Shown one piece after another: positions 7,853-28,800 of a stretch of DNA of 64,000 bases. The position numbers and the translations under genes were made by a program. This stretch comes from Chloranthus sessilifolius. Taxonomy: Eukaryota > Streptophyta > Magnoliopsida > Chloranthales > Chloranthaceae. The notes beneath the pieces were generated by a model that was given only the letters and a program-made list of their open reading frames with translations, did not search any database and was not told where the DNA came from. How positions within the stretch are numbered: position 1 is the first letter of the stretch; every line of letters starts with the position of its first letter. Where the stretch lies: contig CM037598.1 of assembly GCA_021018995.1 (NCBI GenBank), forward strand, positions 74,046,671 to 74,110,670. Reading direction: 5' to 3'.

Positions 7853-8310
7853 CTCCTGGAACTGCCACTGGTGTACTCACCATAATTATCGATTCTCAAT
7901 CGCTTGACTTTCCTTCCAGTTTGGTTCTCAAACAATATTTTTCACTTCTTGAAGATTTCCAATACCTCGTCCTTACTCTTCATCATATAGATCTATACAT
8001 ATCGAGAGTAGTCATTCATAAAGGAGAAGAAGTACCTGACTCCACCTTTAGACGGAACCTTTGAAGGCCCCCATACATCTGAATATATATAGTCCAGTGT
8101 GTCTTTTGTAGTATGAACCGCTATGTTGAACTTAACCCGGCACAGTTTTCTGAAGACACAACACTCACACAAAACAACTTTGTCGGCCTTTACACCTTTC
8201 AACATACCCTATTCGCTCAACTCTGTCATCCGTCTTTCTGACATGTGCCATAGGCGCATGTGCCATATATGTGTAGAAGACATACTGCTATCATCTGACG
8301 TAGGTACCGT
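7853..8310 (-). pseudogene. Ty1/copia integrase fragment, left of the Athila-like element
   Basis: On the minus strand it reads parts of a copia GAG-pre-integrase and integrase: KLCRVKFNIAVHTTKDT, DVWGPSKVPSKGG, FFSFMNDYSRYV and NQTGRKVKRLRIDNYGEYTSG. It is cut at 8310 by the Athila-like LTR. The portion 7985-8310 is repeated at 35800-36113 on the other side of that element. It is the same family as the longer copia copy at 39-41.9 kb. Frameshifts make it non-functional. Confidence 0.85.
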
Positions 8311-9688
8311 TGATCAGTGCTGAAATGTGACTATATTTTGCACTCTATTCCCTACATTTAGCTGTCTGATGAAAGCATCTGATGGTTGTTATGGGGTTTT
8401 AATGATTACAGGTGTTGCTGACCGTTGGATCGTAAAAGAGCATAAAAGAGGGTAATTAAAGGATACACAAGGGCTATGGACAAAAATATCAAAAGAAGCA
8501 TCGAAATCCATGAAGCAGCTCAACATCCACCAAGAGAATGGAGAACCTACCCCTGGATGTCAATCGATTGAGGAATAAGTGTCAATCGATTGACAGGAGA
8601 AGACAAGTCCGCCCCCACTTACTCCAAATAAAAAATTAATCGATTGAGATTTAACTCTCAATCGATTGAGGCTATTAGGGATAGGGTTTGCTCGGCTCTA
8701 TATAAAGAAAGCTACGACTCATAGAAGAGGGCCTTTTCTTTAATCATTATTTTTGGATATTATTGAGGGAGATTGAATTTTTGAGTTTTCTTCTTGGTTC
8801 TTCTTCTTCTCAGTAGATTGTATTAGGATTTCTTTTTAATTCTCTTTTATAATTGTGAGAGCATAGATTGTACCTAGGAACAAAAGCATTGTAAGAAGAT
8901 TTTGTGATAAATAAAAGAGCATTGTTAAAATAATGTCTTCGGATCTACAACTGGTTTGTACACCGAAGATGAGCAGCTAAAGTCATTGCTCAAGGAGAAA
9001 GTGAATCGGAGATAAGTAACTATTTCATTATTGTCTCTACAATTTCATGATTTTGTCATTGAATTATTCTATTATAAGTGTGTGCTTGGTTGAATATTAT
9101 CGAGTCTTCATTTACAGTCATTAATCGTGGTTATCAACAACCGTAAAAGAAGCACTCTATCTAGATCTGTTCCTGCAGGCCGATCTAGGCTGCGGAATAA
9201 TTGATTTATCATTGTCATGACTTAGGATTTTGAGATATGCTATCTTTTTTATATGACTCATTCCGCAATAATAGGTTGAGTCATAATTTTTAGATAGGAT
9301 ATGCCAGATCCATAGTCGCGTTCTTCTCGATTCATTTGTTTTCTTAATAAATGATGGTGTTTTGTTTTAAAATGAATTTGTGAGATTGAATGGTAGAAAA
9401 GTTACGAATCGATGGTTAGCTAACTTCTTGATCAATTCATAAACTGTCATTTTTCTCCTTTATCATAATTTATTCCGTCCTAGTTTGATTAGTTTTCTTT
9501 TATTGCATTAAAAATCGTTTGGTACTTGTATGGTAAATTGAAATTCTCCCTTGGTACTTCCTTGGGTGTTTTAAAGTCTCTGAAAGAATTAGATAAATTT
9601 CACGTTTTTCTGTGGGTTCGACACCCCTGTTCTTATCGTGCTACAATAGATCTTGTGCACTTGCAAGGGTTAAACTTAAAATCGACCA
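8311..9688 (+). mobile_element. 5' LTR of the Athila-like Ty3 element
   Basis: It begins TGATCAGTGCTG and ends AATCGACCA (TG...CA) and is matched by 34371-35799. A TATA box (TATATAAA, 8699-8706) lies just downstream of two paired palindrome modules (8560-8593 and 8636-8669). The 3' LTR carries an extra tandem copy of about 54 bp ('ttcttcttggttcttcttct...'), which accounts for most of the length difference. In the first 250 bp the LTRs differ at roughly 6% of sites by eye, mostly transitions, so the element is not recent. Confidence 0.93.
8699..8706 (+). promoter_or_regulatory. TATA box of the Athila-like LTR promoter
   Basis: TATATAAA lies about 30 bp after the second palindrome module. The same box is kept at 34759-34766 in the 3' LTR. 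Transcription would begin about 30 bp further on, setting the R region. Confidence 0.7.
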
Positions 9689-9712
9689 AGTTTTTGACGC
9701 CGTTGTCGGGAA
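9689..9712 (+). other. Primer binding site (tRNA-Asp type)
   Basis: Immediately after the LTR, 'ttgacgccgttgtcggg' matches, with about three differences, the complement of the 3' end of plant tRNA-Asp (TGGCGCCGTTGCCGG). That is the usual primer site of Athila-type elements. Confidence 0.7.
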
Positions 9713-9766
9713 AAATTGGTGAATTTTTTATTAATTCGGAAAGAGATTTGTGCATTTATTTGACAG

Positions 9767-10280
9767 TTAATCGATTGAGATCTGTTCCTCAATCGATCGA
9801 CTGTGTTCTGTGAGATTTCAGTATTGAATTGTCAATACATTTAGCCGAAAGCATCAATCGATCGACTGTTTTGTGTGAAATCCGAATTGTTAATTTCGAA
9901 TATTGAATTTTAAGGTTTAAATTTTGACTTTTGAAATTTGGAATTAACATTTTTTATCTATAAATTGCAAAAACTGATTTCTTTTATTTTGTTATCATTG
10001 GGTAAGATTTTGTGGAGTTCTTTTAGGAAGTTGAGATTTTTAGGATTTCTTATTTTAGATTTTGTAGGAGACTCTTTTATTATCTTCCTCTTTTAGAAAA
10101 TATTATAGGATTTTCTAAGCTCTAGTTAGTAACTTTTGTTGGACTCTTGCTTTAGGATTTATAGGAATCTTTTATTCTTTTCCTTATTTTTCTCTTTTAG
10201 GTAAGATTTTATAGGATTGTATGAATTGCTTTAAGTTTTAAAATTTTAATTTTTGAATTTAATTTTTTAATTGTAAAATG

Positions 10281-10312
<32 letters not shown>

Positions 10313-10665
10313 AATAAATAAATAAATCTAATTTAAATTCGAATTTTAATTAAAAAAAAAAAATTCTTTTCTTCTAATACTGGCTATTGTTCATCATAGA
10401 ACTCAATCGATGAAAATTCTCTGTCAATCGATTGAGACTGGAATACTATCTGCTGTGGAAATTGTTGAAACTCTATCAATCGATTGACATTTCTCTGTTA
10501 ATCGATTGACTTGAACACGGCTACTTACCTTCTAAGCTGAAAAATCTGTGCTGACTCCGTTTGACTTTTGAATATCAATCGATTGAGACCACTGTTTCAA
10601 TCGATTGACGGATAAAGTCCTTGTTGGGAAATTTTGTTGTGTGCATTACTTCAATCGATTGAAGT
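9767..10665 (+). promoter_or_regulatory. Leader with paired TCAATCGATTGA palindromes
   Basis: The untranslated leader between the primer site and gag carries paired 12-bp palindromes beginning at 9767, 10403, 10476 and 10575, plus single copies near 9854 and 10650. In the pairs the two palindromes are separated by 10 bp (9 bp in the 10403 pair). AT-rich filler and a short (ATA)n/(AAAT)n run lie at about 10278-10326. No coding exon is recognised. Confidence 0.65.
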
Positions 10666-10718
10666 TGATACTTGTGGTTTGTTGTGGAATCATCAACCCT
10701 TTTTGTGAGTGTTGGTGT

Positions 10719-12561
10719 ATGAGCTTTACTCATTCTCATCACCCACGTTTGCAACCGTTTAATCTTGAGATCGAACGATCTTGTAGAGAGAATCGCAGAA
10801 TCCAAAGGAATCAGTATCATCATACTGAGACTGGCAGATCAAAGAAACGGGAACAATCCGAATATTAATAATAGAAATAATGAGAACAATAATCATGATG
10901 AGGGCCCAAGAATATTGGAATATTATAATGACCCTAATTTTTACGAGGATCAAGATAGTATCATGCATGCCCCCATCCCAGGGAACCATTATGAATTCAA
11001 TTCCGCAATGATTCAAATGTTACCAATTTATCATGGATTGTCAAATGAAAATCTACATGTTCATTTGAATGAGTTCATTGCAGTGTATAAAATGTTCCGT
11101 GTGCATAATGTCACTGACGAGATAGCTAAGCTACGACTTTTTCCTTTCTCTTTAAGAGATAAGGCAAAAACTTGGTTCTACTCTTTAGAACCGCAATCTA
11201 TTCAGAGTTGGGCAGAGTTACACCGTCAATTTCTTAAAAAATAATTTTCCATGACCAAAACCATTGAGTTGCGTTAGAAGATCCAGTTCTTTTCCCAACA
11301 ACCTACAGAAACATTTCATGAATATTCGGAACGCTTTAAGGAATTGATTAAGAGTTGTCAAAATCATCAATTGTCAAGGTGGCAGCAGGTCCAAAGTTTT
11401 TACAATGGACTAATTCTCGAAGAGAGACGCATGGTTGATGCATCTTGTGGAGGATCGTGTGCCACGAAAGAGGCAGATGAACTGTGGGCATTGTTTGAGA
11501 AGTTATATCAAACTTCAATCCAAAATGCGACAATGGAGCGAACTAATTTGAATGTGGCAACTAAATCTCATGTGTTAACCAGAGGTGGTCTAGTTGATGT
11601 CAATCACAATACCTCCGATCTTTCAACAAAGGTTGACATGTTGTCCAAGCAAATGAACATGCTGTTATACAACTAAGCAAGCTAAAAGTTCCAGCAACCC
11701 CATCGCCTGTTCAATTTGTGACCACCCAGGTCACATGGCTAACGATTGCCCAACTACCTTGTCATTCTTTCCTGATGAACCTACTCCTCAAGAGCAGGTG
11801 AATCTGACTCAATCATATCAGCGACAGGATAGGAACATGTACTCAAACACCTACAATCCGGAATGAAAAAATCACCCGAACTTAGGATGGGGAGGATCCA
11901 ACCAAACTGGACAGGCGAACCAGTAGTACAAATCCAACGTAATGAGTGGACAACAGAACTTTCGTCCACAACAGAATTCTAATTTCCAGCAGAATTCTAA
12001 TTTTCAACTGAACCCTCCTTATTATCATCCAAATTCTGAATACCGAAAAAATCAGAATTTTAATCAATCTCAGACCACCGCTTCGAAAGATTTTGATTTG
12101 GAGGAAAAGATTATGCGAAATATGCAAGCTTTTCAGCAGATGATGATAGATCAATTCTGCCAATTGACAAATCAGTTGAGTCAACGAGAGGAAGGTAGGC
12201 TTCCTAGCCAACCCATCAACAATCCTCGAGGCCAAGCATATCTGATGAAGGACCATCAAACAGTCAACAGTTGAAAGTTGTTACGGTGCTGAGAAGTGGG
12301 AGAGCTGTTGATAATCAAGTGGAGATGCTAGTGGAACCTCACAAGGAAGGAGAAGAAGAAGTGAGAAAAGGCAAAGGACTAGATAAAGGAAAAGAAAAAG
12401 AAGGTCCCCAAATTGTCCAACCAGTACCTGAAGAAGAATCAGAGAATGAACCTCGTCTCTATACCCCAAAGGCACCATTCCCAGAGTGCCTAACACCTCT
12501 ATCTAGAATGGGAAAGGAGCGTCAAAAATGGAAGAAATCTTCGAAACATTCAAACAAGTGA
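10719..12561 (+). pseudogene. gag of the Athila-like Ty3 element (broken)
   Basis: Gag forms the virus-like particle of the retrotransposon. The likely start is the ATG at 10719 (MSFTHSHHPRLQPFNLEIE). The frame shifts near 10855 and then gives the capsid core (AMIQMLPIYHGLSNENLHVH, KLRLFPFSLRDKAKTWF). A stop at 11242 and another near 11275 interrupt it, and it resumes with ETFHEYSERFKELIKSCQNHQ. A clean CCHC knuckle, C-SI-C-DHPG-H-MAND-C, spans 11708-11749. A Gln/Asn-rich stretch and the LRSGR motif typical of Athila-type gag-pol follow (12288-12303). Several stops and shifts make the product non-functional. Confidence 0.85.
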
Positions 12562-13170
12562 AGATAAATCTCCCATTACTTGAAACGATCAAGCAAGTCC
12601 CCGAGCACGCAAAATTTTTCAAAGATCTATGCACTCAAAAAAGAAAAATGCGTACTCATGTTTCAAAGAAAGTGTTCCTGACAAATTAAGTCAGCTCGAT
12701 ACTGGAATTTGATGCCCCACGAAAACTTAAGGACCCTGGAATCCCAACTGTTCCATGTGTCATTGGTGGGCAACCAATTGGAAAGGCATTATTGGATTTG
12801 GAAGTAAGTGTCAATCTGATCCCCTACTCAGTATACAAGAAATTAGGTCTGGGCGAACTGAAACCCACGACCGTTACACTGCAACTTGCTGATAGGTCAG
12901 AAAGAAGACCTAGGGGTATTATCGAGGACGTTTTGGTCAGAATAGACAAATTTATTTTCCCAGTGGACTTTGTTGTGTTGGACATGGAACCTCCAGTTAA
13001 ATCCAGTAATCAAGTCCCAATCATTCTTGGGCGTCCGTTTCTCGCGACCGCAAATGCCTGCATCAATTGTCGAACAGGAGTCATGGATGTTTTCTTTGGA
13101 AACATGAAAGTTAGACTCAATATCTTTCATGCAATAAATTATTTTCCCAATGAGGATGAGGTTGATTGCT
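12562..13170 (+). pseudogene. Aspartic protease region of the Athila-like pol
   Basis: The protease matures the gag-pol polyprotein. The stretch starts with INLPLLETIKQVPEHAKF and continues through DPGIPTVPCVIG to the active-site region LLDLEVSVNLIPYSVYKKLG and EDVLVRIDKFIFPVDFVVLD. Family members have D-L/S/T-G at the catalytic loop. Here the Gly is Glu (D-L-E at about 12795-12803, consistent with a G-to-A change), which should abolish activity. One stop lies near 12687 ahead of this region. The frame then stays open into the RT. Confidence 0.85.
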
Positions 13171-15029
13171 TCTATATCGATCAGGTAGACGAAGTAGTGG
13201 ATGAAGCTTTACTATCAATGCTTACCAAAGAAGAATTTGAAACTGCTTTGTTAGCCATCTATGAGGAGCCAGGATCTGCGCATAAACAATCAGAAGAGAA
13301 GAGGACGATTTCATCAACTGAAGGTGATATGTCATGTGAAATTGAGACTACGATGGAACCATTGCCTGTTGAGGTAAAGGATGAGCTGACTCCATCAATC
13401 AAGCAGCCACCAACCCTCGAGTTAAAACAGCTTCCTAAGTCACTCAAGTATGCTTTTCTGGGATCTAAGGAAACGCTTTCGGTAATTATCTCATCGACAT
13501 TATCGAAAAAACAAGAGAATGAATTGTTAAAAATGCTCAAAAATCATAAAAAGGCCATCAGATGGACCTTGGCTTATCTGAAAGGGATTGATCCATCATT
13601 TTATATACATAAGATACATCTGGAAGATGATAGTACACCATCGAGAGAACCACAGAGGCGACTTAACTTGAACATGAAAGAAGTCGTTTTAAAGGAAATC
13701 ATTAAACTACTCGATATTGGAATCATCTATCCAATCTCTGATAGTGAATGGGTAAGTCCAGTTCAAATTGTTTCGAAAAAGTCTGGGATCACTGTGATAG
13801 AGACTACCGAAGGAGAATTGGTACCCAGCCGTGAAACTACAGGGTGGCGCATGTGCATTGATTATCGGAAATTGAACACGGCTACCAGAAAAGATCACTT
13901 TCCTCTGCCGTTCATTGATCAAATTCTCGAGAAGTTAGCGGGGCAGGAGTTTTACTGTTTTCTCGATGGATATTCGGGCTACAATCAAGTGCCCGTATTT
14001 CCTGCAGATCAAGAGAAGACAACATTCATGTGCCTTTATAGTACCTTTGCATATCGCAGAATGCCATTCGGCCTATGTAATGCTCCGGCCACTTTTCAAC
14101 GATGTATGTTGGCCATATTTTCGAATATGATTGACAAGTTCATCGAAGTATTCATGGACGATTTCTCTATTTTCAGAAAGACATTTGAATCCTGTTTAAA
14201 TCATCTTGCACAAGTGTTGCAACGTTGTGTAGAATCCAAACTTGTTCTCAGCTGGGAGAAGAGCAATTTCATGGTCCGCCAAGGAATTGTGTTGGGGCAT
14301 ATCATTTCAAAAAAAGGGATTGAAGTTGACAAGGCAAAAGTTGATTTAATCGCTAATCTGCCTCCACCAAGAAATGTTCGTCAAATCCGATCATTTTTAG
14401 GTCATGCTGGATTTTATCGAAGATTCATCAAAGATTTCAGCAAGGTCGCCAAGCCATTGTGCAACTTGCTTGGAAAAGATATTCCTTTTGACTTTGATGA
14501 GGATCGCATGAAAACATTTTTGAAATTACGTGAGCTGTTATCAAATGCACTAGTAATCCAACCACCGGATTATTCTCTACCTTTTGAACTCATGTGCGAT
14601 GCATCTGACTATGCTATTGGAGCAGTCTTAGGCCAAAGGGTAAACAAAATGCCTCATGTGATTTATTACGCTAGTAAGACGCTGATCGATGCCCAGCTAA
14701 ATTACACCACCACCGAGGAGTTATTAGCTGTGGTGTATGCTTTATTCCGCTCCTATTTGCTCCGATCGAAAATAGTGGTCTTTTCATACCACTCTGCGTT
14801 GAAATACCTGCTAACGAAAAAGGACACCAAACCAAGGTTGATCCGATGGATCATACTCCTACATGAATTCAATTTTGAGATTAAAGATAAAAAGGGTGTC
14901 GAAAATATTGTGGCTGATCATCTATCAAGAATTCTGCCTGAAGAATCATCGGTCTCTGAGACTATCCGTGACACTTTCCCAGATGAACAATTGATGGCAA
15001 TTGGTGCACCCGCTACAAAAGTTTCTTAG
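13171..15029 (+). pseudogene. Reverse transcriptase and RNase H of the Athila-like pol
   Basis: The frame is open from the protease to a single TAG at 15027. RT motifs: VSPVQIVSKKSG, WRMCIDYRKLNTATRKDHFP, FLDGYSGYNQ, RRMPFGLCNAPATFQRCM and the catalytic FMDD (about 14150). RNase H: CDASDYAIGAVLG, TTTEELLAVVYAL and VADHLSR. The third acidic residue looks lost, because FSYHSAL stands where family members have a TDH block, so RNase H is probably inactive. The wording of these motifs is Athila-like rather than chromoviral. The in-frame TAG separates it from the integrase. Confidence 0.93.
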
Positions 15030-15041
15030 TTCTCTAATATA

Positions 15042-16316
15042 GTGAATTATCTGGTAACTGGCAGAATCCCTACGCAATGGGGTAAAAATGATAAAAATCT
15101 GTTTTTCTCTCAAATAAAATATTATTTTTGGGATGAGCCACAATTGTTCAAATTATGTTCAGATCAGGTTATCAGGACATGTGTGCCTGAAAATGAACAA
15201 TTGAGTGTTATTAACTTTTGCCATGCTGGGGCCTGTGGAGGCCATTTCGAAGGACAAAAGATCGCACACAAGATTCTTCAAAGTGGATTTTATTGGCCCA
15301 CCATCTTTCGGGACATTGCCAAATTCTATAAAGAATGTCAAAGATGTCAACAACTTGAAAATATTTCAAGAGGAAATATGATGCCACTGAACCCGATTCT
15401 GATTGTTGAAATTTTCGATGTATGGGGGATTGATTTCATGGGTCCTTTCCCCCCGTCGTTCGGGTATTCATATATTCTTGTAGCTGTTGACTATGTTTCC
15501 AAATGGATAGAAGTTGTGGCAACCCGCTCGAATGACCACAAGGTTGTGGTCAAATTTTTGAAAGAAAATGTCTTTAACAGATTTGGGATTCCACGGGCAA
15601 TCATTAGTGATGGCGGTTCGCACTTCTGCAACAACCATTTTGCCACTTTAATGAAGAAATACAGTGTTACCCACAAGGTGGCAACGCCGTATCACTCACA
15701 AACTAGTGGTCAGGTGGAAGTGTCCAATCGGGAAATCAAAAGAGTTTTAGAGAAGACGATGCGACCAGACAAACGAGATTGGTCGAATCGCCTATTTGAT
15801 GCTCTTTGGGCATATCTCACGGCATTCAAGACCCCGATTGGAATGTCACCATTTCGGATTGTCTATGGGAAGGCATGCCACCTCCCATTGGAATTGGAGC
15901 ATAAGGCATTCTGGGCCATAAAATGATTTAATTTCGATATGAAAGAGGCAGGGTCCCATCGACGCCTTCAGCTGAATGAATTAGAAGAGCTACGCTACGA
16001 TGCGTATGAGAATTCGAAGATGTATAAGGAAAAATACAAAAAGTTGCACGATCAGTCAATTTTGCGAAATTTTTTTTACATTGGGTAAAAAGTTTGGTTG
16101 TTCAACTCCAGACTTAAGCTTCATCCAGGGAAATTGAAATCGCAGTGGGAAGGATCATTTCAGGTCGTCTCCACTTCCGTGCATTGGGCAATTGAAATTA
16201 GAAGCCTTACGGACAATCGAATTCTCAAAGTCAATGGGCAACGACTTAAGCCGATGATCGAGCCAGTGACCCAGATGAGAATTGAGCCAATGTACCTCAG
16301 TGACCCGAGCTATTGA
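15042..16316 (+). pseudogene. Integrase of the Athila-like pol
   Basis: It lies in the same frame as the RT, after the TAG. The zinc-binding segment is HAGACGGHF...CQRCQQ. The catalytic core has D in [11 protein letters not shown] in IISDGGSHF and E in [12 protein letters not shown], so the D,D,E triad is present. It ends with LFNSRLKLHPGKLKSQW and NGQRLKPM, the usual Athila integrase C-terminus, without a chromodomain. In-frame stops at 15924 (TGA) and 16086 (TAA) break the C-terminal part. Both are explainable by C-to-T changes of CGA and CAA. Confidence 0.92.
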
Positions 16317-16423
16317 ACGACAATGTGGTCAGGCTGTCGACATTTAAACTCAGCACTTCCTGGGGAGGCAACCAAGTGTGTTTTCTTATTTGCATGTGTC
16401 TTTTTATTTGAGAAGAGTCTTTT

Positions 16424-16924
16424 TCAATCGATTGACTGTCAAACAGTCAACCGATTGACCTTCTGTACTCAATCGATTGACACTTACCCTGTCAATCGAT
16501 TGATGTTCAAACATCATCATCATTTCCCTCCTTTTGTCAATCGATTGAAAGTCCATTCTCAATCGATTGACATCACTTTGAAGTTATGACAAGTTTTCAA
16601 AAATCGGAGCGTCAATCGACACATCTTATTGTAACAGCTAACTTTTGGGGCACGTCTATGTCAATCGATTGAGACCAATCTCTTAATCGATCGACTTGAT
16701 TGTCTGTTTACTACGCCGGTTCTTGAGGCACCCAACCGGTGCGACTTTTCGCGAAAAGGTCATTATCAATCGATTGACATAACTATGTCAATCGATTGAC
16801 ATTAAGCATGGAAGAGTGGATTGTACCATGTCGCATTAGCATGCCTGGTGTCTTTTCGAATCCCCGTGACGTATGGAGGCCAACCATTTTCAATCGATTG
16901 AGGATCCATCCTCAATCGATTGAC
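16424..16924 (+). promoter_or_regulatory. Palindrome-module array upstream of the accessory ORF
   Basis: Six paired modules start at 16424, 16469, 16537, 16661, 16766 and 16890. Each is two copies of TCAATCGATTGA (some with one change), separated by 10 bp, or 11 bp in the first two. A half copy lies near 16612. The last module ends 9 bp before a TATA box. No protein-coding signal is seen in this stretch. Confidence 0.75.
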
Positions 16925-16932
16925 ATTCAAAT

Positions 16933-16940
16933 TATATAAT
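16933..16940 (+). promoter_or_regulatory. TATA-like box before the accessory ORF of the Athila-like element
   Basis: TATATAAT lies directly after the palindrome array and 85 bp upstream of the ATG at 17025, a spacing that fits an independent promoter. Confidence 0.5.
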
Positions 16941-17024
16941 GGGGACACCCATGGTCCCCTTCATCTCAATTCGCCTCCAATCCGACCCGAGCTTCCACAT
17001 TTTCATTCTCCTCGTTCGATCGAA

Positions 17025-18190
17025 ATGGCAGCGTCGGGCCCACCGATATACCGACCACCTCGTCCCGCAAACAACCCTATGCGCATTCCCAATGACGAGT
17101 ATGTTAATTGCCAATTTCAAATGGAGAATTCTTCGATCTCGCTAAATACCATCGCATCGCGGAATGCGCCCGTTCTATCGAATTCATCGAAGCTTTGCAC
17201 TTAGAAATGTTGCTCGCTCCTCCACCTATTGGTGTCTCGCTGTGTATCATTCGCCTGTTTTACCGGAAAATGGAGTGGGTACCTGCACCACTCTCGCCAA
17301 TAGGATTGCCATTCATTAGCCTCGAGATCAATAATTGGCGATATAACCTGCATGCGGCCGATCTCGCACGGGCTTTCAACTTCTTCGTGGTTAGCCCATT
17401 GAACCACCACATCAATCCGGCTATTGATCTTAGTCAGAACGACATGATCAATGATATTTGTGGAGGATGGCGCAGGACCGGTTTGGCAACTAAAGGAGCA
17501 GTCCTACCAATGGACATCTTATTTTGGGACATCGTTATGTCAACTAATTTGCTACCGCATGGCACGAAGAGTGAGCGGACGAAGAATAGGGTGTTAGCAT
17601 TGTACGCGGCGCACATGAATACTTGGTTTGATGCGTCGGGGTTAATGCTAGAGGAGATGTATCGGTGTCACCAGGACATCGCTACCACCACTACACCGAA
17701 GAAGCGAGAGGCTACCCTTCTTCACTTCCCGCACTATGTGATGCATCACTTGGACCAGCTTGGGTGCCCGATTTACGATGATGAAGAGATTGGTGATATG
17801 TAATTCTATCACTACGGTACGAATGTTTGAGATAAGAGCATCAAGGCTATTCTACGTGTGACGCCACCTCCAATTGAAGTCGATGAAATACCTCCTCCTC
17901 CCCGACCAAACCCCGCACAACGCCAACGTGGCGGTGTTAGATGACCTCGTCCCGAAGAGGTCCCTGATTTTAACGTTGAGGTAGCAGTCGCTCGCCTCGA
18001 GGCGCGGATGGATGGGTTGAGTACCACTGTGGGAGGTATTGATCGACGGTCTAGGTTTCAGACTTCTCTTCTCATGCGGATGGCCTGGGAATCGTTCCCT
18101 GGGCATGCCGATGAATTCATCGCAAGAGTGCGAGCAGCGATGATTGAGGAGGGAGACCCTGAATTTGATGATGATGATGATGATGCATAG
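17025..18190 (+). pseudogene. Post-pol accessory ORF of the Athila-like element (PF20167-like), frameshifted
   Basis: The ATG at 17025 (MAASGPPIYRPPRP) follows a TATA-like box. The frame shifts near 17120 and then runs to 17803: FFDLAKYHRIAECARSIEF, VLPMDILFWDIVMSTNLLP, RVLALYAAHMNTWFDASGLM. After stops near 17801-17830 a proline-rich part (VTPPPIEVDEIPPPPRPNP) and a short helical part (VARLEARMDGL) end in an Asp run (18166-18188). The layout (basic/proline N-terminus, globular core, proline-rich linker, short coil) and several core words match the accessory ORF of the inner chromovirus at 29038. I place it tentatively with the 'putative plant transposon protein' family. Position is env-like, but no signal peptide or membrane span is visible. 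Function unknown. Confidence 0.6.
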
Positions 18191-18425
18191 TATTTTTGTT
18201 AAGTGTTTTTGTTTGTTAGTATGGGTGTTTGTTATTTTTGTTTGGTTTGATGTGTTTTTAGATTTTTTTTTTTAGGGAGGATCAATGGTAGTTTGTTTTG
18301 TTGATCTTTTAATTGATGATGGGCTCAATGGTGTAATCAAATCATTTCAATCAATGCAATCAGAGTGTTTTTAGCATATGATATATTTCTCTCTGTATTC
18401 TCGGATTGGTGCATTTGTGCATCAG

Positions 18426-18682
18426 TCAATCGATTGAGATGTCTCTCTCAATCGATTGAGCATTAAATTATCAAATTCTCAAAAATTAAACTTCAATAGT
18501 CGATCGATTGAGGAACAACTCTCAATCAATTGACTACTCTGTGGGCGAAAACATCTCAATCTGTCAGTAACAGAAAATTTCTAATAGTTACTGCTTTGAC
18601 AAAATAGAATTTGAACCGTGCACGCAATGGCACCTTTGACATCTAGTATCAATCGATTGACACTGAAATGTCAATCGATTGA
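18426..18682 (+). promoter_or_regulatory. Palindrome-module array upstream of the second small ORF
   Basis: Modules start at 18426, 18500 and 18649, each two TCAATCGATTGA-type palindromes with a 10-bp spacer. A TATA box (18780-18787) and an ATG (18852) follow. Confidence 0.65.
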
Positions 18683-18779
18683 CAGAAGTATATTTCCGGA
18701 AGAATACCTCTTCCATTCCGGAATTCGAGAGTTGCGTCCTTCTTTGAGTCCTAAGAGTCCGTGTTTAACAGTTTTTCTC

Positions 18780-18787
18780 TATAAAAA
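18780..18787 (+). promoter_or_regulatory. TATA-like box before the 88-codon ORF
   Basis: TATAAAAA lies 72 bp upstream of the ATG at 18852 and about 100 bp after the last palindrome. Confidence 0.45.
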
Positions 18788-18851
18788 TCATTCTTAGGGT
18801 AGTCCTTTTCATCACCTCAAATTATTATTCCCTCTTCCCCACGCTTTGGTT

Positions 18852-19115
18852 ATGGCGCCTATCAAATATCGTACCCGCTCGGCAGTGAAGAAATTGATGG
18901 AACCGGCTAGGAAATGTCCATGCCTTCACGCACCTCAACCATCGTTTGATTTGGCACAGCATGAAGTGATTGATTTAGAGCTGCCATCTCCGACCCCACC
19001 ATCTTCTCCACCACAAGCGCATTTTTCATCACCTCGCGAGGGCGGCATCTCGGAGGAGATGTGGAATTACGCGTTTCTGAAGCCGAAGGAAGGGAGATCC
19101 ATCATGGACGATTGA
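18852..19115 (+). CDS. Small proline-rich ORF (about 87 aa) of unknown function in the Athila-like element
   Basis: Starts MAPIKYRTRSAVKKLMEPAR (basic), followed by FDLAQHEVIDLELPSPTPPSSPPQ and an acidic end. The basic start followed by a proline-rich stretch resembles the N-terminus of the accessory ORFs at 17025 and 29038, so it could be a leftover 5' end of another copy of that ORF. It has its own TATA-like box and an upstream palindrome array. No known domain is recognised. Whether it is translated is unknown. Confidence 0.35.
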   Translation: MAPIKYRTRSAVKKLMEPARKCPCLHAPQPSFDLAQHEVIDLELPSPTPPSSPPQAHFSSPREGGISEEMWNYAFLKPKEGRSIMDD

Positions 19116-20209
19116 AGGGATTAAGACTGTCAGCTTTAGGGTCTAGCTTTAGGAGTCCTTTTTATTGTTATTTGATTTTCATGTTTTAGTTTAGGTTATT
19201 ATTAAATTTGTTTTAGACTAGGTTATTTTTCTCTAAATTTTCCATAAGTGTAATAATTTGCTCAGTTTAAATAAAGTTTAGTTGGTTAAATATTTGTGTT
19301 TTGAACTTTTGATCATAATACCTTTCACTTTGTCTGCTTTCATGGTCATCGATTGCATTAAACAGGTTTGGGGGGGTCTCCCATACTTTCTACGCATCCA
19401 AGCCAATGAGGGCATTGGTCAGATCAGGTTTGGGGGGGGGGGGGGGGGTTATTTTCGATTCATATTAAAAGGCTATTTTTCGGATCTTTAAAGTTTAGCA
19501 GTCAATCGATTGAGATCACTATCTCAATCGATCGACTGATGCCCATTAGCCTATTGGAAATTTGTATCAGTCAATCGATTGAGACCATTGTCTCAATCGA
19601 TCGACTGATGACCATTAAACTTATGAATCTCGAATTTTATTCATAATCTTCAATTGTTGATGACCGAAAATTCCTTAAAAAATTGTTATCATGCCATGAT
19701 TGTTTTATGAATACTCATAAAATTTAAAATTGAATAATGATGTTCATGATCTATGCCTGAAAATTTTTGTACTATCACTCTGCTTTAATTCCAAATATGA
19801 GAAATAAGTATATGACTTGGAATCCTAAGATCACAAAGAAAGACCAAAACCTAGTGAGCTTTAAAATTCTTTGTCCTCATTCTTGATGAGTGCTGAAATA
19901 AATTCGGATATCTTTGAATTTCTTGTTTAATTTGTTGAAATCTCGTATACTCTACCTTTGATTTGTTGACTTCACATGTGTTATACCATTACACTAGAAA
20001 CCAGTGTGTAAAAACTCAAGGCAAATAGGCATTGTTACCATCTTAAAAGGAAATGATCTAAGGCTATTATTGGCTCGTTTGTGACCAAAAGGCCCCACCT
20101 TATATTGAATTTATCTTGTTGCACCCCCTTTGAGCCTCAAATGAAAGATTTTGCCTTAATTATTCCTTGTAAGCTATATTAGCTATACCCCACACCAAGG
20201 TGGGGAGGA
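19116..20209 (+). other. 3' non-coding part of the Athila-like element up to the chromovirus insertion
   Basis: Non-coding. It contains two polypurine-tract-like sites ('acaggtttgggggggtc' near 19365 and 'tcaggttt' plus a 17-G run at 19432-19448), two hairpins (19499-19538 and 19568-19607), and AT-rich sequence with the 'cctttgagcctcaaatg' block found in the 3' UTR of such elements. The last 15 bases before 20210 equal the polypurine tract of the inner chromovirus. Confidence 0.6.
19499..19607. repeat. Tandem pair of 40-nt hairpins built on the palindrome module
   Basis: At 19499-19538 and 19568-19607 the module TCAATCGATTGA / 10 bp / TCAATCGATCGA is extended by CAG...CTG and by complementary spacer ends (GAT-CACT-ATC and GAC-CATT-GTC). 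Each copy can fold into an 18-bp stem with a 4-nt loop and one mismatch. The two copies are 69 bp apart and are themselves a tandem duplication. Confidence 0.8.
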
Positions 20210-22747
20210 TGTAATAGCTCGAAAAATCACGCTAAACTATGACCTCGGGATCCGTGCCCGATCGGTCACAGGTTTGACCAATTAGGAGTTCGATAGTTAG
20301 TGTAGAGTGTGATGAGTGAATGTGATGTGATGGGTTGTGTAGCCATGTGGTGTGTGTTGAAAATCTAAAGTCACATACACCTACTGAGGTGCATGTGCTC
20401 AACACACAAGCTAGGGGGGGAGATAAAAGGGTTTAATAGCCCTAAAATCAAGAGTTTGGTGGTTGAGAGAGAAGTAAAGAAGAGAGAGAGAAGAGTAAAG
20501 AGAGTGATTAATACAAGGAGTAAATGCTAGTTGAAGAAGGGAGATTCGAGCAAGAAAACGTCGGATTCGACGCTTCCGACGCGAGGGATCCGCTAGAAGC
20601 AAAGCTGGAACCCTAGCCTTCCAACCGCTCGATTTGAAATCAATTTGAGATTTATTCAAGGTAAATTTTTGTGAATAAAATGCATAGATCGTAGAGGCTA
20701 AATTGTAGTTGAAAATGGTTTAAATCATAGGATAATGGTTTAGAAAAATAGAGGAAAAAGTGTGGAAAAAGATTGGGAAGAACAGCTCGAAATGGGCTGA
20801 ATCTGACAATTTCGATTAATCAAAATTGGGTTTCGATTAATCGAAATTGGCCAGGAAGTTGAAAAGTCAGAGGACCCCGACTTCGATTAATCGAATTGGA
20901 GTTCGATTAATCGACTTTGGATTTCGATTAATCGATTTGGGTATCGATTAATCGACTGGGAACCTCCAGTGGACCCAAGGGGGGCTGGAGGAAATGATTT
21001 GGGAAAATCGACCAATCGAAATGGGATTTCGATTAATCGATTTCAATTTTCGATTAATCGATTTGGGATCGATTAATCAATTTTAGGAACTCGATTTCTC
21101 GAATAGAGAATCGACTTGGCTGAACAGAGAATTTCGATTAATCGAATTAGAATTCGATTAATCGAATGAGAATCTCGATTAATCGATTTGAAAATCGATT
21201 AATCGATATTGACTTTCGATTAATCGATTTTTGGAATCGATTAATCAAATCAGATTCGATTAATCGATTTTGGAGTTCGATTAATCGACTGAGATAATTT
21301 ATGTTGACCTTTGAGTTTGACTTTAAGATTCTTGGAGGGTCTTAGACCTTCTTTGTTGCATCCTTTGTGATGTGTTTTACCTGTTATGTGGTACCATAGG
21401 TGGTACGTGTGAACTTGTGCACAAGGAGCCACGTGGGACCTTGGTGCAATGATCAAATGAAGACTTGAGGTAGGGAACACCTTGAACATATACTTTATTT
21501 TACAAGAGCATGTATGTAGTGATATAGAATTCAATTCAAATATTTTATTGCTTAAGAATTGTGAAAAGTGTGTGTGCGTGTGACATCCATAAGAGTAATT
21601 ATAATGAGCCATCCCCAGGGGATGAAGAAGTAAAGAGATGAGAGCATCAGGTGTGATGCAAGTGAATGGATACATCCCAGGGATGTATCCAAGATTGAAT
21701 CATGATTGATAGGGCCTAACGGATATAAGATAGCACACTTACACGGTGAATAACTATATGTAAGGCACTGATATTTTTATTATTTGACGTTTGATAGGGT
21801 ACCCCACCGACGTGGCGGGATATCCACGACTGACACGGCAGGATATCTGTGACCAAATCGGGTGGCGAAATCGTAGGCGGTCAGGAGGCTTATCCAGTAC
21901 AGTAAGCACAGGTGTTGAATTGAGATAAGTGAAACCCCGCCACCAATCCCCAGGGGAAAGGGGCTTGGGTACTATATTTATATTCCCAGGGAATACGTTA
22001 AAAGTGTCTATATAGATGACGATGAAGGGTATCTCATCGGGGCTCGATGCTATATTGCTCGGGGATTACTTAAGTTGAAAGTTTAAGTTTTGCTTTAGGC
22101 CTTTTCAGCATCATTCATGAGTAAATGAAAACATAAGTAATCAAATGATAATGAAATGCTTTTTAAGCTTTCATCAATAAGCATAGACACATCATGCATG
22201 GCATATCATGGAATATATGTGAGTAATAATTTATATGTTCAACTGTTTGTTCCCTATTGAGCTAGGATGTAGCTATAGACTATACATCGCAGGTCCACTA
22301 CTAGCATGCCTAGGCTTCAGAGAGGCCGACGACCCGGTGAGTCGGACCTTCGACGTGAAGAGTTGGAGCCACCTCCTGAGGACTTCTTCTAGAGGACTCC
22401 GTTGTGCCACTTTGAGGGCTTTTTGAGAGAGTTTTGTACGGCTTGGTATGTCAAGCTTTGATTTTGTTTAAACCATGTATATAAGGAGTTGGGATTATTC
22501 TTTTGGGACGAACCATCCGTGATGATTGCTATCATCGATGGTTCGGATCGGTTCTCCATTCATGCAGAGGCATGAGGGTAGAACTATCTTTTGGGGAGTT
22601 GCTTAATATAGATTTAAATTCTGAAATTTCGTTTATTATTCTATTGCATGCTTGATATACCAGTGTTCCATGCTTAGCTAAGGGGCACAGTCAAGATGAT
22701 CGTGCTGATGGCACAGGTTTCGGGGTGCCGAAATCCGGGCTGTCACA
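20210..22747 (+). mobile_element. 5' LTR of the inner Tekay/Del-like chromovirus
   Basis: Starts TGTAATAGCTCG and ends GGCTGTCACA. Terminal TGTRATAGC / GCTGTCACA inverted repeats mark the LTR. It is repeated with few differences at 30881-33347. A TATA-like GATAAAAGGG lies near 20421. An array of TCGATTAATCGA palindromes occupies 20811-21292. The 3' LTR lacks several palindromes and is 71 bp shorter, so the array is the fastest-changing part. Confidence 0.93.
20811..21292. repeat. TCGATTAATCGA palindrome array in the chromovirus 5' LTR
   Basis: More than 15 copies or one-base variants of TCGATTAATCGA are separated by spacers of mostly 7-9 bp, giving a 19-21 bp centre-to-centre spacing in the denser runs. 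The corresponding array in the 3' LTR is 31465-31905. Confidence 0.85.
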
Positions 22748-22748
22748 G

Positions 22749-22765
22749 TTGGTATCAAAGTCATT
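22749..22765 (+). other. Primer binding site (initiator tRNA-Met type)
   Basis: TTGGTATCAAAGTC follows the LTR by one base and matches, with about one change, the TGGTATCAGAGC complement of plant initiator tRNA-Met. Confidence 0.85.
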
Positions 22766-22838
22766 TCTTTTAGCAATTCTGGCAATTATTCTTTGGGTCA
22801 GAACATAGGGGCTTCTGCTAACGAAACTTTAGTTTCAA

Positions 22839-24153
22839 ATGCAGCCGCAAATGTCATCTAGAGGAAGAGGCCGACCAAGGGGAGGCCAACAGAGGAGTCT
22901 ACGTAGTGGAGATGATTACATCTCTCCTACAAATAGAGTGCCTTTAGGAATCTTGAGGCCCGAGGAGTGCAGTAGTAGTGAACGACATAATGAAGAGGAT
23001 CGAGATCATCGGATCAAGATCTAAGAGAACAAGAGAGTGAGAGAAAGACAAGAAGATAGAGAGGAGCGACAAAGGATGATGCACACTATGGAGACTATGG
23101 CAGATGCCATGGCACAACAAGCCGCATCCTTTGCGACTCATGCATCGAAGCAACGACCACCTACACCACATGCAGGACTGCGTTGCCTCATCTTTTCTGA
23201 GTTTAGGAGGATGAGACCTCCTTCATTTTACAGGCGGTGAACACAATGGCCCGAGCTGGCTGATGGAGATGGAGAAAGTCTTTAGCGTGCTAACTTGCAC
23301 GGAAGATGAGAGTGTGAGATGGGCAGCTTATATGTTGGATGGGGAGGCTGGGCCTTGGTGGAAGTCCGTGATACGGACTCGGGCTCAAGAGACCCCAGAG
23401 TTGCCTTGGACTTGGGAGGAGTTTGTTGAGGAGTTCAACAAACAATATTTTCCAGAAGTGGTGAGGAACCAATTAGAGATACAATTCCTACAATTAGTAC
23501 AAGGGAGGATGACAGTGAGAGAATATAGGGTAGAGTTTCTACGACTTGCCCGTTTTGCTCCGGATTACGTCGCTACCGAAGTGATGAAATCCAAGAGGTT
23601 TCAGCAAGGTTTGAAGCCTGAGGTTAGGGGAGGCGTAGCTCTATTTCAGCTGAGAACCTATGAAGAGGTCATGAGTAAAGCACTAGTGGTTGAAGAGGAG
23701 AATACAAATAGATATCGACAGAGAGAGCAACAGAGAGGAGGAAATGAACAAGGAAGGACGGGGACCTATGAACCGGTGAACAAAAAGCCGAGGTTCGTAT
23801 CCCAAAATCAGAGACCACAGTTCCAAGGGGGTTACGGAAGACCGGCGCAACAACAACACCAACAGAGGTTCCCATTACTTGCGTCGGGGAGACCTTTTCG
23901 ATATGAGAGCCCTGCCATGTCTACTGGCGCCACTATCACACAGGGTTCTCGTACTGTTTCTTCCGCACCTCGGGAGACTTGCGCAAAGTGTGGCAAGCCT
24001 CATAGGACAGTGGATTGTAGATTGGGAACTAGGGGCTGTTTCCGATGTGGCAAGGTGGGCCACTTGATCAAGGATTGCCCCGAGGCGGATAAAAGAAAGA
24101 CGGTTTTGATTCTTGACACCACGACCCATTCAAGCAAGGAAACCGATCGTTAG
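22839..24153 (+). pseudogene. gag of the inner chromovirus (broken)
   Basis: ATG at 22839 opens an Arg-rich start (MQPQMSSRGRGRPRGGQQR). A TAA at 23022 and a frameshift near 23215 break the frame. From 23263 the capsid core is clear: EKVFSVLTCTEDESVRWAAY, WWKSVIRTR, WEEFVEEFNKQYFPEVVR and EYRVEFLRLARFAPDYV. The C-terminus has a degenerate knuckle (CAKCGKPHRTVDC) and a perfect one (C-FR-C-GKVG-H-LIKD-C). The wording is that of the Ty3 Tekay/Del group. It ends with a TAG at 24151, ahead of the intron-like insert. Confidence 0.88.
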
Positions 24154-24209
24154 GGAGAGCCTGTCGATCCTTTGCTCGAGGAAGAGGAACATGCATGACG
24201 TCATCCAAG

Positions 24210-24377
24210 GTGAGACTCGTTAAAATTAAAGAAAATTTCTTTTCATTTAAAATTTTAGATAGAGAAGGAGCATGCATTAGAAATTGTATAGATTCTTTTC
24301 TCAAGACAAAAAGCTGTATGTGAATTAAGAGTGTAAATTGATGTGTAAATTATTGTATGTATGTATGTATACTATAG
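24210..24377 (+). other. Intron-like 168-bp insert between gag and protease
   Basis: The codons DVIQ-G are split inside the Gly codon: CAAG is followed by GTGAGA at 24210, and the coding sequence resumes at 24378 after ACTATAG, with TLNIYEKG leading to the protease. The insert is AT-rich, has GT...AG ends and contains a (TATG)n run. Related elements normally run through this point without a gap. It could be a real intron or a chance insertion. Confidence 0.5.
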
Positions 24378-24790
24378 GTACTTTAAACATATATGAAAAA
24401 GGATGCTTCGGTGGATATGACGCTCGAGTCTTGATAGACCCAGGGTCTACCCACTCATTCGTCACTCCACGTTTCGCCAAGAAGATGAAGATTGTTCCAG
24501 AGACGTTGGATTTTGTCCTATCTGTGTCTATTCCGACTGGAGAGTTAGTAGACACGGAGTTAGCTTGCAAATCCATCATTGTAGCAGTTCGAGACTTAGA
24601 GGTGCATGAATTAGAAGCAAAGTTGATACTGTTAGACATGCAGGGGTTTGATGTGATCCTTGGCATGGACTGGTTGGCGCAGCATTGTGCAACCGTCGAT
24701 TGCAAGAACAAGGTAGTCATTTTCAGACCCAACACAAGAAGATCATTTCGGTTTCAAGGAGTGAGGTCGTCATACGCCTTGATCTCGTGA
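24378..24790 (+). pseudogene. Aspartic protease of the inner chromovirus
   Basis: Reads ARVLIDPGSTHSFVTPRFAK, then LELVAVRDLE-like strands (IIVAVRDLEVHELEAKLILL) and the flap-side GFDVILGMDWLAQHCA. The catalytic loop has D-P-G-S, as in this group. The frame ends at 24788, and the connection to RT (24791-24913) is frameshifted. Its upstream join to gag depends on the insert at 24210-24377. Confidence 0.82.
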
Positions 24791-24913
24791 TGGGCCGAGA
24801 AAATGATCGAAAGGGTTGCGATGGATACTTAGCTTTCTTAAAGGAGGACAAGGAAGAAAAGAACGTCATTTCGAGATAGCGGTTATGCGAGACTTCAGCG
24901 TGTTTCGGAGGAA

Positions 24914-26267
24914 TTGCCTGGATTACCTCCAGAAAGAGAAGTAGAATTCGCCATTGACTTAGCACCAGGAACGGAGCCTATTTCGAAAGCACCTTATAGA
25001 ATGGCTCCCGCTGAGTTAAAGGAATTGAAGGAACAACTACAAGAACTTATGGACAAGGGGTTTGTTAGACCGAGCGTGTCTCCATGGGGAGCACCGGTCT
25101 TGTTTGTCAAGAAAAAGGATGGGTCAATGCGGCTATGCATTGACTATCGACAATTGAACAAACTCACTGTGAAGAACCGCTACCCTTTGCCTAGAATTGA
25201 CGATCTATTCGACCAATTCCAAGGAGCAAGGTATTTTTCCAAGATCGACCTGAGATCTGGGTATCATCAGTTGCGAGTCAAAGCTGAGGACATTCAGAAG
25301 ACAGCTTTCCGGACACGATATGGACACTATGAATTCCTTGTGATGCCGTTTGGATTGACGAATGCTCCGGCGTCGTTTATGGATCTGATGAACCGAGTGT
25401 TTAAACCACACTTGGACTCCTGCGTCGTAGTGTTTGTTGATGATATACTGATATACTCCAAATCCAAGACGGAACACGAAGAACATTTGAGGATTGCTCT
25501 ACAGACGCTACGTGAACACCAATTGTACGCCAAACTCAGCAAGTGTGAGTTTTGGTTGGAAGAGGTTAGCTTTTTGGGACACGTTGTCTCAAAGCATGGT
25601 GTCACGGTAGATCTAGCAAAGATAGAAGCAGTAGTTAAATGGGAGCAGCCAAAGACAGTGACCGATGTCCGAAGTTTTCTGGGCTTAGCAGGCTATTATT
25701 GACGTTTCGTTGAGGGGTTTTCAAAGATATCGGGACCTCTCACAAAGCTGACACGAAAAGATTCGAGGTTTGAGTGGAGTGAGGCATGCGAGAAGAGTTT
25801 TCAAGAACTCAAAATGAGACTCACTTCGGCTCCAGTGTTAGCGATTCCTTCAGGCAGTGGAGGATACGCCGTGTACAGCGACACGCCATACAATGGCCTT
25901 GGTTGTGTGCTCAACCAACACAAGAAGGTGATAGCTTACGGATCAAGACAGCTGAAGGAACACGAGAAAAATTACCCGACTCATGACTTGGAACTAGCAG
26001 CAGTCATTTTTGCGCTGAAGATTTGGAGACATTACTTGTATGGTGAGACTTTTGAAATTTTCACAGATCATAAGAGCCTCCGATATCTGTTTACACAGAA
26101 AGAGCTCAACATGAGACAACGCAGATGGATGGAATTCCTCAAGGATTATGATTGCTCCATACAATACCATCCAGGCAAGGCGAATGTTGTAGCCGATGCA
26201 TTGAGTCGAAAAGGTTTAGCTCAGTTAGCTTGTTTGATTTTGGGTATGCACCGATGGAAATTATTGG
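24914..26267 (+). pseudogene. Reverse transcriptase and RNase H of the inner chromovirus
   Basis: Open frame except for one TGA at 25700 (in [18 protein letters not shown], where an Arg CGA is expected, so a C-to-T change). RT motifs: [67 protein letters not shown] and catalytic FVDD (about 25434). RNase [46 protein letters not shown] and [10 protein letters not shown], so all four acidic sites can be traced. This is the best preserved enzyme in the window, with a single visible stop. Confidence 0.94.
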
Positions 26268-27206
26268 AAGACCTGGCAGTCTATGATGCGAACATTGAGT
26301 CAAAGGATACCAGATCCTTTTTGGCTAACATATCAGTAAAGCCAGTGATATTTGAGCATATCCACGATCTACAGATGAAAGATCCGGCATTAATAAAGAT
26401 TCATCAAGACGTGAGTGAAGGCATCAGGTCGGACTTCTTAATAAAAGAAGATGGTTCTTTGTTGTTTAAAGGCCGTCTCTGCATTCCGGACAATGCCGAT
26501 CTAAGACGAACGATTCTTGATGAGGCCCATAAGTCAAATTATGCTATCCACCCTGGTAGCACCAGAATGTACCAAGATTTGAAAAAGAACTACTGGTGGC
26601 GAGGACTGAAGCAAGACGTGGCGTCGTGTCACGGTGTTTGACTTGTCGAGTGAAGGTTGATCATGACATCCTGGACTACAACCTTTACCAATCCCAGAAT
26701 GGAAATGGGAATCAATCTCGATGGACTTCATTGTTGGATTGCCCCGTACTGCTAAGAGACACAATGCCATTTGGGTCGTCGTAGACCGATTGACCAAATC
26801 AGCGCACTTTTTGCCGTACAATACTACGTATACGGCAGGAAGACTGGCAGACTTATACATGAAGGAGATCGTAAGATTACATGGGATTCCAAGCAGCATA
26901 GTTTCAGATCGTGATCCACTATATACGTCCAAGTTTTGGAAGAAATTTCAAGAAGGAATGGGAACACGACTAGACTTTAGTTCAGCGTTCCATCCTCAAG
27001 CGATGAATGAGCAGCGAGTGAACCAAGTAATAGAAGATATGCTCAGGGCGTGCATGCTTGATATGCAAGGATACTGGGATGAGTATCTACCGATGCTCGA
27101 GTTCGCATACAACAACAGTTTCCAAACGAGCATTGGCATGGCACCATATGAAGCTCAGATGACGATGGCGATGCAAATCACCCCTCAATTGGGAGGAAAG
27201 CAGTGA
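26268..27206 (+). pseudogene. Integrase of the inner chromovirus (frameshifted)
   Basis: The histidine side of the zinc finger is present ([20 protein letters not shown]), but the frame breaks near 26630 and the cysteine pair region is garbled until 26721. The core then reads MDFIVGLPRTAKRHNAIWVV, DRLTKSAHFLP, IVSDRDPLYTSKFWKKFQ, FHPQAMNEQRVNQVIEDML and FAYNNSFQTSIGMAPYE. Both catalytic Asp residues are seen. The Glu position falls in the altered NEQRVNQ stretch. A stop at 27204 separates the chromodomain part. Confidence 0.9.
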
Positions 27207-27312
27207 GAATTTGTGTTAGGGCCAAAACTACTTGAAGACAACGCCACCGTCGTTCAATAATCGATAAAGGTTGAAATCGACGTAGTAGAAGTAGTTAGAA
27301 AAGTTACATGAC

Positions 27313-27765
27313 ATGAAGCGGACTAGTGTCGACTATAAAGTGGGCAAGCACGTGTTTGTGAAAGTGTCACCTATGAACGGTGTAATGAGATTTGGCAAGA
27401 GAGGGAAGTTAAGCCCACGTTATGTTGGGCCATTCAAAATTTTGGGACGCGTAGGTGAAGTTGCATATCGCATTGGGTTACCACCGCTATTTGATCGAGT
27501 ACATAACGTGTTCCACATATCGATGCTCAGAAAGTACGTGAATGATCCGTCTCATGTATTAGGAAAGCAACCTATAGAGATGTGTGAGGACATGAGCATG
27601 ATAGAGGAACCAGTGGAAATCTTGGATCGAAAGGAACAAGTACTGCGCACTAAAGTGATTCCCTTAGTGCTTGTTCGGTGGAACAATCATCCAAAAGAAG
27701 AGGCTACTTGGGAACGAGAGGCCGATGTGAAAGAACAATATCCAGCCTTGTTTCCAACGACGTGA
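27313..27765 (+). pseudogene. Integrase C-terminus with chromodomain
   Basis: Reads VGKHVFVKVSPMNGVMRFGK, LSPRYVGPFKILGRVGEVAY, VFHISMLRKYVNDPSHVL and then a chromodomain block, VIPLVLVRWNNHPKEEATWE. The chromodomain directs integration to particular chromatin and identifies the element as a chromovirus, most like Tekay/Del. The stretch 27207-27312 upstream is decayed linker. Confidence 0.9.
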
Positions 27766-28795: not shown

Positions 28796-28800
28796 AAGCC

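Follow-up and report, generated by a model that had tools for sequence, protein, structure and literature searches.

In a 64,000-nucleotide stretch of the Chloranthus sessilifolius genome (assembly GCA_021018995.1, contig CM037598.1, positions 74,046,671 to 74,110,670; hereafter the window), we analyzed an Athila-like long terminal repeat (LTR) retrotransposon and a chromovirus nested inside it. The two elements are unrelated, and each carries many copies of a short palindrome of its own, placed at nearly regular spacing in noncoding DNA. The Athila-like element repeats TCAATCGATTGA (motif 1), mostly in pairs with a 10-bp spacer, and the chromovirus repeats TCGATTAATCGA (motif 2) in phased arrays. 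These arrays are a Ty3/gypsy, paired-and-phased variant of the palindrome arrays known from other retrotransposons. Judging from the sequence, the palindromes are probably operators for a protein dimer, located at the LTR promoters and at putative internal promoters of accessory open reading frames (ORFs).

The LTRs of the Athila-like element, at 8311-9688 and 34371-35799 on the plus strand, are ~94% identical (self-BLAST, with matches of at least 60 bp and E <= 1e-8). The nested element (20195-33347, plus strand) has LTRs at 20195-22747 and 30866-33347 that are 93% identical. It encodes gag, protease, reverse transcriptase, RNase H, integrase and a chromodomain (PF00385, E = 4.3e-6), and we classified it as a chromovirus because a Ty3/gypsy pol is present with a chromodomain after the integrase. 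In the outer element, pieces of Retrotrans_gag, RVT_1, RNase H, H2C2 and rve were found at 10723-15926 (plus strand). Both elements have the Ty3/gypsy order, since the integrase follows the reverse transcriptase and RNase H. The label Athila-like is used here on the grounds of gene order, size and a 3' PF20167-like accessory ORF alone.

Between the start of the Athila-like element and the nested insertion (8311-20194), motif 1 occurs 24 times exactly, 34 times with at most one mismatch and 38 times with at most two. The same counts in 100 dinucleotide shuffles had means of 0, 0.12 and 1.31 and maxima of 0, 1 and 5. In total there are 26 exact copies, all within the Athila-like element. An earlier note, made from the letters of this DNA, had reported 17 pairs of the palindrome, and we located every one of their starts. 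As it had also claimed, 14 pairs have a 10-bp spacer, and of the other three pairs one has a spacer of 9 bp and two have spacers of 11 bp. Spacing was tested on 36 of the 38 sites, leaving aside two overlapping two-mismatch hits (19528 and 19597). Of the 35 neighbour distances, 18 measured 21-23 bp, compared with a mean of 0.72 and at most 5 when sites were placed at random in the noncoding parts (20,000 trials). The statement that the palindrome occurs almost only in pairs holds for the 17 pairs, but there are two solo sites (9854 and 10651), and the sites at 16424, 16447, 16469 and 16492 form a run of four (16424-16503) spaced by 23, 22 and 23 bp. The earlier inventory was also incomplete in that it did not mention the nested chromovirus and its own palindrome array.

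The modules lie outside the coding stretches tested, as had been proposed for gag, pol and the accessory ORF: no site with up to two mismatches occurs in gag-pol (10723-15926) or in the accessory ORF (17035-18190), nor is there one in the small ORF2 (18852-19115). Two pairs in the 5' LTR, starting at 8560 and 8636 (8560-8669), end 29 bp upstream of a TATATAA at 8699. The 3' LTR repeats them, with an intact module at 34620 and a decayed copy of the 8636 module. The leader between the 5' LTR and gag (9767-10662) contains modules at 9767, 10403, 10476 and 10575 together with both solo sites. Six pairs are located between pol and the accessory ORF (16424-16923), the last site ending 9 bp before a TATATAA at 16933. 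Three more pairs (18426-18682) separate the accessory ORF from ORF2, whose ATG is at 18852, and are followed after 97 bp by a TATAAAA at 18780. The final two pairs (19502-19604) belong to a recent 68-bp tandem duplication (self-BLAST, 88% over 60 bp).

A scan for palindromic 10-mers returned, beside simple AT repeats, two families: CAATCGATTG, with 26 copies that are all in the Athila-like element, and CGATTAATCG, with 47 copies that are all in the chromovirus. The latter is part of motif 2, which occurs 47 times exactly, 61 times with at most one mismatch and 66 times with at most two. Allowing two mismatches, 19 sites lie in the chromovirus 5' LTR (20812-21288), 17 in its 3' LTR (31468-31898) and 30, two of which overlap, between the chromodomain and the accessory ORF (27981-28791), where a TATATAT at 28801 follows 9 bp after the last site. 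The chromovirus stretch 22748-27765 contains no motif 2 site, and in both elements the coding stretches tested are free of their own palindrome at up to two mismatches. Neighbouring motif 2 sites are 18-22 bp apart in 50 of 65 intervals (21 bp in 25 of them); the intervals include both LTR copies and hence are partly non-independent. We also ranked palindromic 8-mers, and the most enriched among those with at least five copies were AATCGATT and GATTAATC, with 58 copies each against 1.95 expected from base composition. The 10-mer and 12-mer counts are preferred because 29 of the 58 copies of AATCGATT are in the chromovirus, formed by its palindrome and the next bases.

Neither element contains the motif of the other when at most one mismatch is allowed. 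Outside both elements, the window contains no motif 2 site and a single motif 1 site with one mismatch (TCAATCGCTTGA at 7896), immediately outside the Athila-like element. Region 35800-64000 is free of both motifs even when two mismatches are allowed; it is a weak control, since the copia remnant and the ORF like that of long interspersed nuclear elements that it contains are fragments.

Such arrays could in principle arise neutrally, through local duplication or template switching of palindromic units that have no function. The tandem organization of the chromovirus arrays fits this explanation, as does that of 16424-16513, which Tandem Repeats Finder reported with 62% matches. Spacer subtypes (GA...TC and CA...TG) and shared right-arm variants suggest older common ancestors for some modules; because of this shared ancestry, tests that count the modules as independent yield p-values that are too low. 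The earlier note had reasoned that recent tandem duplicates with conserved spacers would explain the geometry by descent, and self-BLAST, at its thresholds of 60 bp and E <= 1e-8, identified such duplicates for the modules at 19502 and 19571 only. Between the Athila-like LTRs, the sites differ at 4 of 48 positions and the rest at 73 of 1310, i.e. the sites differ no less, and one module has decayed in the 3' LTR. This equal divergence is what is expected for an inert copy. However, the sites were kept while their spacers diverged: mean pairwise identity is 0.95 for Athila-like sites (33 of 36 sites) and 0.39 for 15 ten-bp spacers, and in the chromovirus it is 0.94 for sites (48 of the 5' LTR and linker, one overlapping site omitted) and 0.40-0.53 for spacers. 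Strict spacing, the absence of sites from the tested coding stretches and the recurrence of the arrangement in two elements whose sequences differ also argue against neutral spread, which we consider very improbable. Selection acting on spaced palindromic sites is credible, because their geometry is far from chance, sites but not spacers were kept, tested coding stretches are avoided and a second element shows the same pattern.

Protection of CpGs within the motifs was considered as a further sign of selection and rejected as evidence. In the chromovirus LTR pair, 1 of 31 CpGs within motifs differs, compared with 25 of 70 in the rest (p = 0.0004). However, the array also diverges less at non-CpG positions (2/365 versus 42/1887, p = 0.036), the differences are unevenly distributed and some patches of the alignment are doubtful, and TCGA sites outside the motifs are just as stable (1/9). 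The corresponding values in the Athila-like LTRs are 1/4 and 11/33. The chromovirus LTR arrays as a whole (20812-21288 versus 31468-31898) diverge less than the remaining LTR, most markedly at CpGs, a regional difference that is not clearly motif-specific.

Selection might alternatively act on the 34-bp module as a fold, either a DNA cruciform or an RNA hairpin with a role in packaging, reverse transcription or small-RNA production. The earlier note had stated that the spacer ends are complementary in most pairs, and this was confirmed for the first base pair in 13 of 17 modules (permutation p = 0.004) and extends to 27 of 34 over two base pairs (permutation p = 0.0008). For ten-bp spacers only (n = 14) the values are 11/14 (p = 0.027) and 22/28 (p = 0.022). 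In 14 modules, folding was better with the module's own spacer than with half-swapped spacers (p = 0.01), and z-scores against shuffled spacers are negative in 15 of the 17 modules. Because the spacer halves pair better than half-swapped controls, dyad symmetry of the DNA, a cruciform or a common origin by inverted duplication is possible. Palindromes of maize Sireviruses coincide with an excess of small RNAs (Bousios 2016, as cited in PMC10760457), which would also fit a fold.

Several results speak against the fold, which we judge unlikely. A hairpin does not need palindromic arms, yet a single palindrome recurs, exactly or with one mismatch, in most arms. On the plus strand, the arms mismatch as G-T in 5 cases, A-C in 7 and G-A in 1, without strand preference, and folding is equally good on the minus strand (mean -16.9 versus -16.3 kcal/mol for the plus strand); because of these two results there is no sign of selection on the genomic RNA. 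Whole spacers are exchangeable between modules (mean -16.2 swapped and -16.3 own), the probable shared ancestry of modules inflates the significance of spacer pairing, and chromovirus spacers pair weakly (p = 0.21, 0.046 and 0.069). Two palindromes are solo, and Rfam gave no match at gathering scores in 8300-35900. We also asked if the palindromes are 14 bp long and rejected this: the flanking bases are complementary in 0 of 17 first arms and 7 of 17 second arms (6.95 expected). Pairing of the outer module flanks is likewise not above chance (8, 9 and 5 of 17; p = 0.28, 0.08 and 0.52). The earlier proposal of selection on spacing or on a fold is therefore supported for spaced palindromic sites and not for a plus-strand RNA hairpin.

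If the palindromes are operators, each 12-bp palindrome would bind one protein dimer, and sites about two helical turns apart would place neighbouring dimers on nearly the same face of the DNA, which may permit cooperative binding. The modules would serve the LTR promoter and the internal promoters of accessory ORFs. TATA-like boxes stand beside some of the arrays: the last palindrome ahead of the accessory ORF ends 9 bp before one in both elements, and the other gaps are those of 29 bp in the Athila-like LTR and 97 bp at ORF2 given above and 1189 bp in the chromovirus LTR. These are 5 of the 10 plus-strand TATAWAW matches in 8311-35799; the others are at 9959, 11086 and 33422 and in the 3' LTR copies at 33078 and 34759.

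The dimer may be a host transcription factor that drives both types of promoters, a version to which we give only limited credence. The sites upstream of the TATA-like boxes at 8699, 16933 and 28801 would suit such a factor, and the repeated motifs (RMs) of Sireviruses are similarly placed (PMC2829016). The tobacco element Tnd-1 lacks an env-like gene and uses the near-identical palindrome ACAATCGATTGT as its RM, in 8 copies (excerpts of PMC2829016); this favours a host factor over a protein of the element. Motif 1 (TC-AATC-GATT-GA) and motif 2 (TC-GATT-AATC-GA) consist of the same half-sites in reversed order, a likeness spotted post hoc, and half-sites common to three unrelated elements would fit one factor family. 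Homeodomain-leucine-zipper and GARP proteins are examples of candidate factors for GATT/AATC half-sites. Against a host factor, each exact motif is found only in its own element, though both elements share one genome; the copies are many, and the leader and the DNA downstream of the accessory ORF also contain some; and the window outside the elements has only the one-mismatch motif 1 site at 7896.

By a narrow margin, our tentative preference is for the element's own PF20167-like (Transposase_32) accessory protein as the binder, because the motifs are private and the accessory proteins are homologous. Each protein would recognize only the noncoding DNA of its element and would activate it or block its silencing, much like VANC proteins at VANDAL transposons. 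The Athila-like accessory region (~17025-18190) has an ATG at 17025 and a broken frame; its piece 17108-17803 (plus strand) matches PF20167 with E = 0.0031. The chromovirus accessory region (29002-30300, plus strand, ATG at 29038) is split by a stop into 29002-29640 and 29641-30300, and the match of 29002-29637 to PF20167 has E = 3e-4. Pieces 17108-17800 and 29641-30297 are homologous, with 37% identity over 60 residues (blastp, single comparison, E = 2e-8). The two PF20167 matches fall in separate parts of the profile (4-76 and 80-168), the ORFs being broken and the pieces searched apart. For ORF2, the Pfam scan gave one chance-level match (Suv3_C_1, E = 0.099). Neither accessory piece had a hit in the protein collection, and because of this neither an alignment of relatives nor a usable structure was obtained. 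The 3' accessory ORFs of the chromovirus and of the Athila-like element are related, which may reflect recombination or capture.

We note several points that weigh against the operator reading or against the accessory protein as binder. TATAWAW is not rare in 8311-35799, with 10 plus-strand and 12 minus-strand matches. The privacy of the motifs is relaxed at up to two mismatches, where 7 motif 1 sites appear in the chromovirus and 3 motif 2 sites in the Athila-like part. The link between ORF and palindrome is drawn from two elements. Both PF20167 matches (21.2 bits in the chromovirus and 17.9 bits in the Athila-like element) are under the curated 45-bit cut-off; piece 29641-30297 has no Pfam match, and 29002-29637 gives no alignment with the Athila-like piece (E = 0.60). 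A PDB search with one accessory piece had a best E of 0.6, a single-sequence structure prediction of an accessory piece was unusable (pLDDT 36), and no DNA-binding activity of PF20167 was found reported in the literature searched. A broader form of the accessory-protein reading strikes us as doubtful: PF20167-family accessory proteins of plant Ty3/gypsy elements might be dimeric, sequence-specific DNA binders, each coevolved with a private phased palindrome array. By analogy, they would then form a self-recognition system for anti-silencing or activation, parallel to VANC and VANDAL, and we hold this to be doubtful to the same degree.

The earlier note had suggested scanning genomes for such modules outside this family. 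In prokaryote contigs, two copies of motif 1 separated by 8 to 12 bp occur at two places that represent one homologous context, both with a 10-bp spacer: Geothrix rubra (L002:5233-5266) and an Acidobacteria metagenome-assembled genome (L001:3649-3682). Viral contigs have neither motif 1 pairs with 8 to 12 bp between the copies nor motif 2 pairs with 6 to 10 bp. The prokaryote modules lie beside TetR-family genes, an assignment for which three proteins were tested (two in L002 and one in L001). TetR-family proteins are dimeric regulators. The locus, with its pair beside regulator genes, has the spaced motif 1 pair in common with the Athila-like element; it differs in being bacterial and in having a single pair, and the bacterial module is an analogy only.

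As to the surroundings, the two flanks of the Athila-like element (7986-8309 and 35800-36112) form a direct duplication and are 93.8% identical over 324 aligned columns, near the divergence of the LTRs. The flank expected for such an insertion is a 5-bp target-site duplication. A paralogue at ~40450-41130 spans both flanks undivided, at 80-81% identity. Two G tracts preceded by TTT (19432-19448 and 19370-19376) lie upstream of the nested insertion and are possibly polypurine-tract-like. The window also contains two ~495-bp tandem copies that are 95% identical (57008-57998) and a peroxidase gene fragment (2950-3387; PF00141, E = 1.7e-26).

The function of env-like and accessory ORFs in plant LTR retrotransposons is described as unknown in the portions available of PMC2829016 and PMC11728184, and the private arrays, together with the homologous accessory ORFs, turn it into a simple binding question. 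The 3' accessory ORF of sunflower Athila elements has a partial PF20167 match, a predicted nuclear localization signal and no known function, and that of sunflower Tekay elements is at the 5' side and matched no known domain (excerpts of PMC11728184); the chromovirus studied here differs from the latter in having a 3' PF20167-like ORF. The word stem "palindrom" is absent from PMC11728184. The accessory domain of Retand elements is a different one, for which DNA binding is predicted (PMC11963269). A 2026 paper, in the part available, leaves open whether such ORFs occur in Tork and Athila elements and modulate their epigenetic landscape (PMC12844716). In the literature searched, mostly without subscription papers, nothing joined PF20167 ORFs to palindromes or described paired palindromes in Athila elements.

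VANC proteins provide one parallel. The noncoding repeats of VANDAL21 contain YAGTATTAY, to which VANC21 binds both in vivo and in vitro (PMC5735166), and VANC6 uses another motif (PMC5735166, PMC10398659). As in these systems, short motifs private to each element are repeated here in noncoding DNA of elements that encode an accessory protein, and related proteins would be associated with different motifs. VANDALs differ in being Mu-like DNA transposons, and the VANC21 motif is non-palindromic. The likeness is one of motif layout; Pfam scans of the broken accessory pieces gave weak PF20167 matches.

A closer parallel in sequence is provided by the Sirevirus RMs. According to the excerpts available of PMC2829016 (Bousios et al. 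2010), these are short family-specific palindromes of unknown function. Each element carries 8 to 32 copies, which are conserved although their flanks have diverged; in the LTR they are found close to the TATA box, and an env-like gene, where present, is also preceded by them. They are called Sirevirus-specific there, being found in 13 of 21 Sireviruses and in 0 of 30 classic Ty1/copia elements. A CGG-CCG core is present in 12 of the 13 published RMs, all except that of Tnd-1, and in neither of our motifs. The Tnd-1 palindrome shares the 10-mer CAATCGATTG with motif 1 (10 of 12 bases). Both arrays share two features of an RM, namely a palindrome with at least 8 copies (24 exact in 8311-20194 and 47 exact in the chromovirus) that is placed in the LTR upstream of a TATA-like box, 1189 bp away in the chromovirus LTR, and upstream of the env-like gene. 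They differ in their hosts, which are Ty1/copia elements for the RMs and Ty3/gypsy elements here (Athila-like and chromovirus), and in that the Athila-like element has further copies in its leader and following its accessory ORF. The sites studied here are also paired or phased, and no fixed pair spacing is noted for RMs in those excerpts. The repeated-motif phenomenon of Sireviruses is thereby extended to Ty3/gypsy elements, with fixed geometry.

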